This document shows, one piece after another, positions 36,525 through 38,739 of a stretch of DNA of 38,739 nt (positions are counted from its first letter, which is position 1; the number at the start of each line of letters is the position of its first letter). The position numbers and the translations under genes are program-made. The DNA lies in assembly GCA_014378845.1 (NCBI GenBank), contig JACMNB010000078.1, positions 1 to 38,739 of the forward strand, in the 5' to 3' direction. Under the pieces are notes generated by a model, which worked only from the letters and a program-made list of their open reading frames with translations, was not told the DNA's origin and did no database searches. Origin of the DNA: Methylotenera sp. GTDB taxonomy: Bacteria; Pseudomonadota; Gammaproteobacteria; Burkholderiales; Methylophilaceae.

Positions 36525-37280
36525 ATGAGCAACTTACGATTTTATAGCCCAGAACCTTTACAAATAGGCGCAAGCATCAAACTAAGCGACAACGCCGCCG
36601 CTCATGCCACACGGGTAATGCGGCTGGAAATAAGCGATGAAATTGTGCTGTTTAATGGCGATGGCAATGATTATATTTGCGCGATTACTAGCATCAAAAA
36701 AAGCGAAACACAGGCAATTGTGAAAAGCTTTGTAAAAATTACAAACGAATCGCCGCTTAATATCACCTTACTGCAAGGCATTTCCAGCGGCGATCGCATG
36801 GATTACACGATTCAAAAAGCGGTGGAGCTTGGCGTGACGCAGATTGTGCCGATTATCACCATCCGTAGCGTGGTAAAGCTTTCTGCAGAACGCGGCGAAA
36901 AACGCTTAGCACATTGGCAAAGCGTGGTGCATTCTGCTTGCGAGCAATCTGGACGTGCGTTTGTGCCACAAGTGTCTGCGCCAGCAACATTATCAGCATG
37001 GCTTGCAACTACCCCCTCACCCTTTAAGGGTGAGGATAAAATGCCACCAACCCGCATATTACTGAATCCAATCGGTGCAATGCGTTTGGCCGAGTTGCCA
37101 AAACCCACTGGAAACATCGAGTTACTAATCGGCGCAGAAGGCGGCTTAAGCCAAGCAGAAATCGACACCGCATTCTCACAAGGCTTCCAATCCGTCGTAT
37201 TGGGCACACGTATTTTACGCACTGAAACAGCGGCATTAACGGCAATTGCAGCGATGCAAACAATTTGGGGTGATTTCTAA
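36525..37280 (+). CDS. rsmE: 16S rRNA (uracil-1498-N3)-methyltransferase RsmE
   Basis: SAM-dependent SPOUT methyltransferase (251 aa) that methylates U1498 of 16S rRNA. The N-terminal PUA-like domain (MSNLRFYSPEPLQI...HATRVMRL) is followed by the knotted SPOUT domain with QGISSGDRMDYTIQKAVELG, VPIITIRSVVKLS, WQSVVHSACEQSGRAFVP and the SAM pocket IELLIGAEGGLSQAEI plus LGTRILRTETAAL. About residues 163-174 (TTPSPFKGEDKM) are an insert encoded by a perfect palindrome and are not part of the usual fold, which explains the slight excess over the usual ~243 residues. The start ATG at 36525 lies about 30 bp after the composite repeat. Confidence 0.95.
   Translation: MSNLRFYSPEPLQIGASIKLSDNAAAHATRVMRLEISDEIVLFNGDGNDYICAITSIKKSETQAIVKSFVKITNESPLNITLLQGISSGDRMDYTIQKAVELGVTQIVPIITIRSVVKLSAERGEKRLAHWQSVVHSACEQSGRAFVPQVSAPATLSAWLATTPSPFKGEDKMPPTRILLNPIGAMRLAELPKPTGNIELLIGAEGGLSQAEIDTAFSQGFQSVVLGTRILRTETAALTAIAAMQTIWGDF
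37015..37035. repeat. Perfect palindrome inserted in the rsmE coding sequence
   Basis: CCTCACCCTT (37015-37024) T AAGGGTGAGG (37026-37035): 10-bp perfect arms around one base. Translated in the rsmE frame it contributes PSPFKGE. CCTCACCCTT-type palindromes translating to PSPFKGE are known dispersed repeats in proteobacteria (recalled). It falls in a variable loop of the protein and keeps the frame. Confidence 0.8.
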
Positions 37281-37425
37281 AATGACCTTTGCGAAACGGC
37301 TGTGCTAGACAATACTTTGTTAAAAAACTCCTCAAAATCCTCATGTATAAAGCATACATTGCGTTTTTTCGTCATTTTTTGCCGCTCCTTGTCATCGTAC
37401 GCGCATTTCGCAAAGGGCATTTAAA
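37281..37425. repeat. Inverted-repeat-bounded (MITE-like) spacer, rsmE to ACP-like gene
   Basis: Inverted ends CCTTTGCGAAA (37286-37296)/TTTCGCAAAGG (37406-37416) are perfect over 11 bp, and similarity extends to AAATGaCC / GGgCATTT on the outside. The element is about 140 bp, has no coding capacity, and fills the spacer exactly. The right arm contains AAAGGG, the ribosome binding site of the following gene. It may be a miniature element or a regulatory stem. Confidence 0.55.
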
Positions 37426-37695
37426 ATGGGCTTAGATACGGTTGAATTTGTACTTTTGGCAGAGAAAGAGTTTGATCTGCAACTGCCTGACGACGAAGTG
37501 AGTTTGGTTGCAACGATTGGTGATTATGCTGATTTGGTTCACCAAAAACTGATAGTTAAGCATGGCATAAAACCTTGCCCTAGCCAAAATGAAGTTTATA
37601 GCAGAATTAAAAATTTGCTGATACAGCAATTTGCAATTCCAGAAGCTTTAATTTCTCGCAATGCCAGTTTTGTAAACGATTTACAAATGGATTAA
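37426..37695 (+). CDS. Acyl-carrier-like protein with swapped halves
   Basis: Protein of 89 residues. Residues 1-44 (MGLDTVEFVLLAEKEFDLQL, then PDDEVSLVATIGDYADLVHQ) look like the second half of an acyl carrier protein beginning at the phosphopantetheine site, but the usual D-S-[LV]-[ED] reads D-T-V-E. Residues 54-89 (NEVYSRIKNLLIQQFAIPEA, then ASFVNDLQMD at the end) look like the first half of an ACP, ending exactly where D-S-L would follow. The gene is thus a permuted or end-to-end-duplicated carrier fold. With Thr at position 5 normal 4'-phosphopantetheine attachment is doubtful. AAAGGG sits 9 bp before the ATG. No ATG exists upstream in frame. Partner enzymes are not visible. Confidence 0.65.
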   Translation: MGLDTVEFVLLAEKEFDLQLPDDEVSLVATIGDYADLVHQKLIVKHGIKPCPSQNEVYSRIKNLLIQQFAIPEALISRNASFVNDLQMD

Positions 37696-37707
37696 GCACC
37701 AATATAT

Positions 37708-37761
37708 TTGTATTATTTACATATTTACGTATAATAGTTTGTAATAATTACATATTTAGGT
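37708..37761 (+). promoter_or_regulatory. Promoter and direct repeats upstream of the HTH-argA gene
   Basis: A perfect -10 TATAAT (37730-37735) has a weak -35 TTGTAT (37708-37713), 16 bp apart. Two direct repeats flank the -10: TTACATATTTACGT (37717-37730) and TTACATATTTAGGT (37748-37761), 31 bp apart, about three helical turns. They are candidate operators for the XRE domain encoded next (inference). The downstream copy ends 7 bp before the GTG start, and its AGG may double as the ribosome binding site. Confidence 0.55.
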
Positions 37762-37768
37762 GTTCAAA

Positions 37769-38739
37769 GTGGCGAATTATCCAATACATACCGCAATTTT
37801 ACCAACACAGCACATTGGCATTGCCATTCGTAACGAGCGTAAAGCGCAAGGCCTCACTTTGCAAGGCCTTGCTGAAAAAGTAGGTGCGGACGCAGGCAAT
37901 TTGTCGCGAATTGAGCGTGGGGAGTTGGGCTGCACCGAAGTCCTTTTGCGCAAAATTTCAGATGCGCTTGCTACCACACCAGCACGTTTATATGCCGCTT
38001 CTACGCCACATGTCAGCGACAACGCCGCAATTTATAACAGCGCGCAACAATCTTTTTTTGCTAAAGATTTCGTCAATTGGTTTCGCTCTGCAACGCCTTA
38101 TATTCACGCTTTTGGCGGGCGCACTTTTGTGATTGCGTTTGGCGGCGAAATTGTCGATGAAAAACAATTTATTGCATTGACGCATGATTTAAATTTGCTG
38201 GCAAGCCTAGAAGTGAGGCTGGTGCTGGTGCATGGCGCGCGCCCACAAATTGAGGCGCGGCTAAAACGCGATAAATTAACGCCAGCTTTTCATAATGGTT
38301 TGCGCGTGACCGATGACGCGGCGATGGAGGCAGTGAAAGAAGCCAACGGCGCGGTGCGGGTAGAAATTGAAGCGCTGCTTTCGATGGGCATTGCCAATTC
38401 ACCCATGGCGGGCGCGGATATTCGCGTGGCGAGCGGAAATTTTGTTACCGCAAAACCGCTGGGCGTGCGCGATGGGGTTGATTTGCAGCACACTGGCGAA
38501 GTGCGCAAAATTGATGCGATTGGCATACAAAAACGTTTGGACGACAACGCCGTAGTGTTGCTTTCGCCGCTTGGATATTCGCCTACTGGCGAGGCGTTTA
38601 ATTTAAGCTTAGAAGATGTTGCAGTAAGCACAGCGATTGCGCTGGATGCCGATAAGCTGATATTTCTCATGGATTCGGCCGGCGTGCAAAATTTGCGCGG
38701 TGAATTGCTGCGCGAAATGACCGCCGAAAAAGCCAAAAA
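37769..38739 (+). CDS. argA: HTH (XRE)-N-acetylglutamate synthase fusion (partial)
   Basis: One uninterrupted frame runs off the window end (323 residues visible). Residues ~17-76 form an XRE/Cro-type helix-turn-helix (IGIAIRNERKAQGLTLQGLA, then EKVGADAGNLSRIERGE). After a short linker (77-98), the amino-acid-kinase-fold domain of ArgA begins: DFVNWFRSATPYIHAFGGRT, FVIAFGGEIV, LEVRLVLVHGARPQIEARL, GADIRVASGNFVTAKPLGVR, VVLLSPLGYSPTGEAFNLSL. ArgA makes N-acetylglutamate, the first step of arginine synthesis, and its kinase-like domain binds the feedback inhibitor arginine; the GNAT domain would follow beyond the window. The start is GTG at 37769, with another GTG at 37760. A standard ArgA begins near the FVNWF motif, so the HTH part is an N-terminal addition. 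No ATG lies at the domain boundary. Confidence 0.88.
   Translation, partial: MANYPIHTAILPTQHIGIAIRNERKAQGLTLQGLAEKVGADAGNLSRIERGELGCTEVLLRKISDALATTPARLYAASTPHVSDNAAIYNSAQQSFFAKDFVNWFRSATPYIHAFGGRTFVIAFGGEIVDEKQFIALTHDLNLLASLEVRLVLVHGARPQIEARLKRDKLTPAFHNGLRVTDDAAMEAVKEANGAVRVEIEALLSMGIANSPMAGADIRVASGNFVTAKPLGVRDGVDLQHTGEVRKIDAIGIQKRLDDNAVVLLSPLGYSPTGEAFNLSLEDVAVSTAIALDADKLIFLMDSAGVQNLRGELLREMTAEKAK

Follow-up and report, generated by a model that had tools for sequence, protein, structure and literature searches.

The final gene in the window, by which we mean the whole 38,739-nucleotide stretch of Methylotenera sp. DNA analysed here, raises the question of whether an N-acetylglutamate synthase (ArgA) that begins with an XRE/Cro-type helix-turn-helix (HTH) domain is one genuine protein and, if so, whether it acts on transcription as well as on metabolism. 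An uninterrupted frame, with no stop codon from 37760/37769 to 38737, encodes the HTH, a linker, and ArgA. The HTH-argA coding sequence (37769..38739, forward strand, as are its parts) is cut by the contig end, because the window spans all of contig C46. Contig C30, reverse-complemented, begins with the same 141 bases that end the window, and there a 264-residue open frame supplies the rest of ArgA, with argB (294 residues) after it. Within the window protein, Pfam places an HTH domain at residues 16-73 (37814..37987), matched by HTH_31 over that range at 33.7 bits against a cut-off of 27, and by HTH_3 over residues 20-72 at 27.7 bits against 23. The recognition-helix region, placed by analogy with XRE structures, would lie at about A42-R50. 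A linker (residues 77-99, 37997..38065) leads to the ArgA N-terminal helix (residues 100-115, DFVNWFRSATPYIHAF, 38066..38113), delimited by alignment to relatives, and then to the first part of the amino-acid-kinase (AAK) domain, the putative arginine sensor (38123..38734), which matches Pfam AA_kinase above cut-off over residues 119-322; the rest of that domain and the GNAT domain lie on C30. The XRE HTH-ArgA fusion is genuine. The preliminary description of this DNA had read it as in frame, and both the open frame and the domain search, with HTH_31, HTH_3 and AA_kinase above cut-off and the GNAT-bearing remainder on C30, bear this out. A scan of the window against Rfam gave no matches. Among at least 33 argB-like matches from genomes other than the window's own, argB lies directly downstream of argA, by coordinates, in 29 of the 33 listed; in the others it is on a different contig from argA (two), about 15 kb away (one), or in a genome with no argA match (one).

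The likely start is the GTG at 37769, with a Shine-Dalgarno-like AGGTG, read from the sequence, at 37758..37762 (forward strand), 6 nt upstream. Most relatives read start at a Met (ATG) aligned with residue 14; the window has CAG at that codon and starts 13 codons further upstream, and its nearest relative, L005 (86% identity), is likewise extended ahead of the HTH. The preliminary description had considered that translation might begin only near residue 95, but no start codon lies near that position in the window, where codon 102 is GTC. Codon 102 is GTG in 31 of 66 sequences (L062 included). In 13 loci (L041, L044, L049, L050, L051, L053, L055, L056, L058, L061, L062, L070, and L072) a Shine-Dalgarno-like CAGGA stands one codon ahead of the GTG at the DFV junction, a possible internal start for a short ArgA.

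How widely is this architecture conserved? The window protein was searched against 120 genomes of its family, Methylophilaceae as judged by named relatives, its own genome included. In 113 of these a single match extends from query residue 23 or earlier through residue 305 or later, which rules out a sequencing or frame error; the frameshift at residues 76-98 that the preliminary description had entertained is thus not there. Nine of the 113 (G048, G115, G075, G096, G024, G027, G090, G099, and G110) carry one stop inside the match, and in all nine the stop precedes the start codon. Among the seven remaining genomes, G007 has the HTH (L046) with a long linker, G033 has it in a different frame ahead of a run of N (L062), and in G071 argA is split by a frame change within the kinase domain; G064, G100, G106, and G119, which gave no argA match, are genomes 74, 77, 86, and 91% complete. 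The fusion is kept even in streamlined family genomes of 1.2-1.4 Mb.

A 30-row profile (A1) spanning the HTH through to the junction was run on 399 genomes of the order. All 13 family members in this sample gave a near-whole-profile match. With at most 11 candidates scored per genome, none of the 386 genomes outside the family matched both parts, and 111 of them matched at 1e-12 over the ArgA part alone or the XRE part alone, in a survey of a kind that would miss an independent fusion carrying a very different HTH. An order-wide architecture is rejected on this sample. In a sample of 274 genomes of the class, the window's own genome was the sole match at 1e-15. Among the best 80 matches in a named collection, 42 loci align from residue 1-5 to residue 115, and they belong to Methylotenera, Methylovorus, Methylobacillus, Methylophilus, Novimethylophilus, Methylopumilus, KB13, LSUCC0401, and metagenome-assembled genomes whose names go no further than family, order, class, or phylum; each of the remaining 38 matches in a single part, four over the XRE domain and 34 over ArgA. 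The preliminary description had suggested a survey across betaproteobacteria; in these samples the fusion is widespread in Methylophilaceae and was found in none of the 386 order genomes outside it. The fusion looks like the innovation of a single family, one that even genomes of 1.2-1.4 Mb have retained.

Selection on the protein was compared by region. Over 16 moderately diverged pairs, with L062 excluded, the HTH had a pooled dN/dS of 0.10, the linker 0.22, and the N-terminal helix plus kinase domain 0.06; keeping L062, in which the HTH is out of frame, gave 0.127, 0.23, and 0.062 over 17 pairs, and in both sets the pairs have sequences in common. Across 64 family loci the HTH is 59-63 residues long and the linker anywhere from 4 to 49. 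(L062, L074, and in some counts L029 and L030 were omitted, for a start not read, a run of N, or a frame change.) In the stretch NLSRIERG, the L, S, and E are invariant among 30 sequences and the N, R, I, R, and G nearly so; the HTH is most divergent in the streamlined genus g16, at 35-41% identity to the first row of the 30-row alignment. The single protein thus consists of two constrained domains joined by a free spacer, under purifying selection.

The enzyme part carries the features expected of an arginine-regulated synthase. L005 scores 679.7 bits against NCBIfam model PRK05279 (cut-off 344) and 567.2 against TIGR01890 (cut-off 202.85), and the window part alone passes both, at 353.2 and 296.5 bits, so that both are assigned above cut-off as amino-acid N-acetyltransferase. 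In protein L117, Pfam finds the AAK and GNAT domains within a single chain. Of 64 family proteins, 63 retain the arginine-site motif E-(L/I)-(F/M)-(T/S)-x-x-G-x-G-T; the copy in the window's own genome, QELFTLEGIGT, is on C30. A pattern for the key Lys is found in 61 of 65 sequences (L062 included), and in the other four the Lys is visible by eye in the printed stretch. Five active-site residues of the solved relative ngNAGS were aligned by hand: Glu353, Arg425, and Ser427 are identical (E455, R526, and S528 in L117, invariant in 36 sequences), and L005 has Thr in place of Ser392 and Lys in place of Arg416. Tyr19 of E. coli ArgA presumably corresponds to Y111 of the window protein, within the FR...PYI stretch. 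Feedback-resistant E. coli ArgA is described as altered at Tyr19 (PMC8674398). For ngNAGS, Glu353 is the proposed base and Arg425 and Ser427 are binding residues; arginine is held by K201, E270, and the E-(L/I)-(F/M)-(T/S)-x-x-G-x-G-T loop, which adjoins the N-terminal helix (PMC4490483). The same work describes the N-terminal helices of neighbouring subunits as interlacing at a two-fold interface, and arginine as shifting the helix and altering the hexamer, with a contraction of about 20 A and a ring wider by 10 A (PMC4490483). By these residues the enzyme part looks intact and apparently still catalytic. The alignment of structure 2r8v to L005 begins at residue 92, with the N-terminal helix, and by this alignment the HTH is joined immediately ahead of the helix that would respond to arginine.

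If the HTH binds DNA, a target might be sought at its own promoter. The preliminary description had pointed to two direct repeats there as candidate operators, and they hold up: repeats of 24 nt, 88% identical with a spacing of 31, enclose two dyads, TGTATTATTTACA and TGTAATAATTACA, and the pair recurs upstream of HTH-argA in relatives. Predicted operator 1 (37707..37723) is the dyad TTTGTATTATTTACATA with core TGTAN5TACA at 37709-37721, scoring 17.0 bits against the family motif; predicted operator 2 (37738..37754), 31 bp from it, is the dyad TTTGTAATAATTACATA with its core at 37740-37752, scoring 17.1 bits. Taken singly, the core TGTAW5TACA shows no enrichment in the window's own 2.26-Mb genome, with four places, two of them here, against six for a control pattern. 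A strict pair of cores (gap of 15-21 bases) occurs once each in 17 of the 120 family genomes, from 3 of 24 genera, against none for the control pattern, and coordinate comparison places it directly upstream of HTH-argA in 17 of 17. Similarly, the longer form TTGTAW5TACAA, sought in 12 genomes, has 10 places in nine of them, all 10 at the HTH-argA promoter, with seven places for the control. It is the dyad pair, not the single core, that is the informative signal.

A symmetric motif, TTTGYN7RCAAA, was fitted to 66 promoters and counted on that same set: two sites above 5 bits occur in 50 of the 66, and 44 of these pairs are spaced 28-34, where 100 shuffles gave means of 0.73 and 0.09 and maxima of 3 and 1 for two sites and a spaced pair. 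The pair is found in none of 67 control windows farther upstream and none of 68 within the gene. Because the motif had been fitted on the promoters on which it was counted, a held-out test was run, with 28 promoters (genera g1, g7, and g20) used for training and 37 for testing (five from the same genera, 32 from others). At 4 bits, 18 of the 37 have both sites and 29 have one or more (shuffle means 0.5 and 6.3), and at 8 bits both are found in 12 (0.02). Dyad spacings cluster at 29-32, with 41-42 in g16 and 50-51 in g14, near three, four, and five helical turns, and a pair so phased is present in 18 of 24 genera. Six of the 24, with the broader motif and at the threshold used, have no phased pair; seven of nine loci of genus g20 also have none, and one dyad or half-sites remain there. 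The variant TTTGYW7RCAAA is unselective, with 18 places in 25 genomes, four of them at argA, against 10 for the control.

The promoter position is uncertain. A candidate -10 box, TATAAT, lies between the dyads at 37730..37735 (forward strand) and would go with a weak -35. Such a TATAAT-like box stands between the dyads in 40 of 43 cases, only slightly above the 31.5 expected from AT-richness, and AT-rich sequence often yields boxes of this kind. A consensus promoter scan, which shows no excess over shuffles (2 against 1.8), lists TTTACA/TATATT at 37680-37708 instead.

Several other features of the upstream DNA may be recorded in their own right. The best operator-like dyad of the window, TTTGTAAAAATTACAAA at 36729-36745 (17.7 bits), is perfect and falls within rsmE, 978 bp upstream of operator 1. 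It was rejected as a conserved far-upstream operator: none of 29 loci scanned has a similar site equally far upstream, and the sole far-upstream site among them, in L006, lies at a different distance. A perfect palindrome, CCCTCACCCTTTAAGGGTGAGG, at 37014-37035 is in the rsmE frame and is read through in frame. Between rsmE and the next open reading frame, 17-bp terminal inverted repeats (AAATGACCTTTGCGAAA / TTTCGCAAAGGGCATTT) flank 109 bp at 37280-37422, an arrangement resembling a MITE. That next frame, of 89 residues (37426-37695), resembles an acyl carrier protein split at the site of the phosphopantetheine Ser and with its halves swapped, C-half before N-half, the Ser itself missing; residues 2-40 match positions 48-86 of Pfam PP-binding_2 below cut-off, and the swapped second half was judged by eye.

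One position in the HTH varies together with the operator. The base that follows TTTG, either T or C, tracks HTH residue 53 in the 62 loci whose operator was scored: the fraction of C is 0.10 with Leu (n=31), 0.54 with Ile (n=7), and 0.84 with Gln (n=24), and the association explains 77% of the operator-base variance. On a tree of the ArgA part, in which long branches make deep placement unsure, residue 53 changed independently only two times and the operator class four; residue and base are concordant in a mean of 1.9 of two pairings, too few for significance. The covariation is therefore suggestive only, as a hint of specificity, and with two independent changes it was rejected as proof.

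How far would such a regulator reach? In 14 genomes of g1 and g7, the regions upstream of argF (13 loci), pyrB (14), and argG (13, among them L259, read in the wrong frame) have no recurrent site, and only one of the 40 exceeds 8 bits (L220). A wider arginine regulon is rejected on this count, for argF, pyrB, and argG. The 13 TTTGYW7RCAAA sites fetched from places other than argA adjoin no arginine gene, as judged by eye, and 10 of them fall inside an open frame of more than 150 codons. Since argF, pyrB, and argG have no recurrent site, HTH-ArgA looks like an autoregulator of argA-argB, with a reach apparently narrower than the pathway. Separately, an operator-like dyad (L213, G000:C29:54272-54288) lies 86 bp upstream of a 477-residue open reading frame that by eye resembles an amino-acid permease. 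None of 60 family genomes has a match to the arginine repressor ArgR (PF01316) above cut-off, although two hits fall below the threshold, and ArgR is absent from the Pfam hits of the window protein and of L117. A survey describes ArgR as conserved in gammaproteobacterial groups and absent from the other classes it covered (PMC5343134). ArgJ is found in all 31 genomes examined, 19 of them from the family; N-acetylglutamate is therefore likely also recycled, and ArgA activity may be partly dispensable.

The fusion, its conservation, purifying selection, the conserved arginine-site and active-site residues, and a conserved operator pair specific to argA are supported by computation; we consider a putative arginine-sensing transcription factor the best reading of HTH-ArgA. 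It is probably a trigger enzyme with two functions, which would both catalyse N-acetylglutamate synthesis as an active synthase (NAGS) and repress its own argA-argB operon, as a single target, by binding the two phased dyads. ArgA would form a D3 hexamer like that of its solved relative. With the HTH preceding the interlaced N-terminal helix, the hexamer would display its HTHs as two-fold pairs matching a palindrome, and a single hexamer, with three such pairs, could occupy both operators simultaneously. Since the HTH adjoins the helix that arginine moves in the solved relative, arginine may control activity and transcription together: by moving the helix and widening the ring it would favour the DNA-binding state, and enzyme inhibition and gene repression would merge into one allosteric event. 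The direction, arginine as co-repressor, is the least certain step, and we lean toward it only slightly. The wide variation in linker length makes a rigid connection between arginine site and HTH less likely. That one ring might run both feedback loops, its six HTHs, paired two-fold by the interlaced helices, clamping two operators three, four, or five helical turns apart while arginine-driven widening disables catalysis and locks the repressor onto its own promoter, is an arrangement that we would put at a little under an even chance.

Other explanations share part of this evidence. The protein might bind its dyads simply according to enzyme level, giving ArgA-dose homeostasis in which arginine acts on the enzyme only. 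Selective operators confined to the gene's own promoter would suit such an arginine-independent autorepressor, as would the variable linker, across which an arginine-driven motion need not reach the HTH; but the attachment of the HTH beside the arginine-responsive helix and the near-universal arginine-site motif point the other way, and we judge this reading rather unlikely. It is less probable still that some unlinked regulator other than HTH-ArgA binds the dyads and that the HTH of ArgA has a different DNA target or none. The tie between operator and HTH is indeed one of position and conservation, and the association of residue 53 comes from just two independent changes; against this, a separate regulator for one promoter would be less economical than the HTH encoded there, ArgR is no candidate given its absence above cut-off in the 60 family genomes, and the operator base agrees with residue 53 in nearly both of its independent pairs.

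A relic HTH without DNA binding, serving for instance as a solubility or assembly module, would accord with the faster evolution of the HTH than of the ArgA part and with its divergence in g16. Its retention in genomes of 1.2-1.4 Mb, the near-invariance of NLSRIERG, and the persistence of the dyads with their phase all argue otherwise, making a relic very improbable. We give equally little credence to two products of one gene, a full-length HTH-ArgA regulator and a short ArgA enzyme made from the junction GTG: that codon and, in some loci, the stretch ahead of it would allow an internal start, but the GTG is missing from the window and from 35 of the 66 sequences, and the Shine-Dalgarno-like stretch is also explained by common codons of QPQE.

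Classical NAGS proteins (ngNAGS 2r8v, E. coli ArgA) have in common with HTH-ArgA the AAK and GNAT domains, the arginine-site motif, and the N-terminal helix, but the solved relatives align only from that helix on. Like the trigger enzymes, HTH-ArgA appears to combine an enzyme with a DNA-binding domain in one chain; PutA, BirA, NadR, PepA, and PyrH are, however, other enzymes from other pathways. PyrH has the amino-acid-kinase fold, as has the sensor of ArgA. None of the five is known to catalyse the feedback-inhibited first step of an amino-acid biosynthesis, and PepA and PyrH are not known to carry a fused HTH. All five are described as metabolic enzymes that also control transcription, PutA being single-target and autoregulatory (PMC8249747). 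BzdR/BoxR, in which an XRE HTH is linked to a shikimate-kinase-like domain, is a repressor with an effector; the enzyme domain of BzdR is described as inactive and as sensing benzoyl-CoA (PMC3602430). HTH-ArgA is like BzdR/BoxR in its order of XRE HTH, linker, and enzyme-derived domain, but unlike BzdR its enzyme looks intact. The BzdR/BoxR-type model PRK08154 matches only residues 14-91 of the window protein, at 23.7 bits against a cut-off of 204, and NCBIfam finds no shikimate-kinase-like C-terminal domain in it. The role proposed here, repression of argA in response to arginine, is the one that ArgR would have, with a different domain; ArgR is described as having a multi-gene regulon (PMC5343134).

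As to the origin of the HTH, the nearest stand-alone relatives found are in proteins with Peptidase_S24 (four of four scanned), and the HTHs of phage repressors reach 46% identity among the best 10 of 19 phage records. These CI-like repressors, the closest stand-alone HTH relatives found, have Peptidase_S24 rather than ArgA as effector domain, and Pfam finds no Peptidase_S24 in the window protein or in L117. Against the PDB, the HTH profile (22 sequences) matches solved relatives that include the DNA-binding repressors SinR, P22 c2, and DdrO and also ClgR; none of these relatives is an ArgA by name.

The preliminary description knew of no described system of this kind, which is true in part. 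The joining of an enzyme and a DNA-binding domain is already known, from PutA, BirA, NadR, and BzdR; the ArgA version, its conservation, and its operators were not found described. The literature searched, by titles and abstract openings, with few subscription papers and without preprints, gave no description of an HTH-NAGS fusion, of its family-wide conservation, or of its operators.

To the question of how proteobacteria outside the gamma class control arginine synthesis without ArgR, HTH-ArgA offers a testable answer for one family. In the BzdR work, the step from enzyme to regulator was artificially rebuilt as a missing link (PMC3602430). HTH-ArgA would be a case from nature of an enzyme, apparently still catalytic, that has acquired a DNA-binding head and, if the proposal is true, the natural form of the transition built for BzdR, in a family with no detected ArgR. 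Allosteric inhibition and repression would then be joined in one molecule, and HTH-ArgA could serve as an arginine-sensor module.
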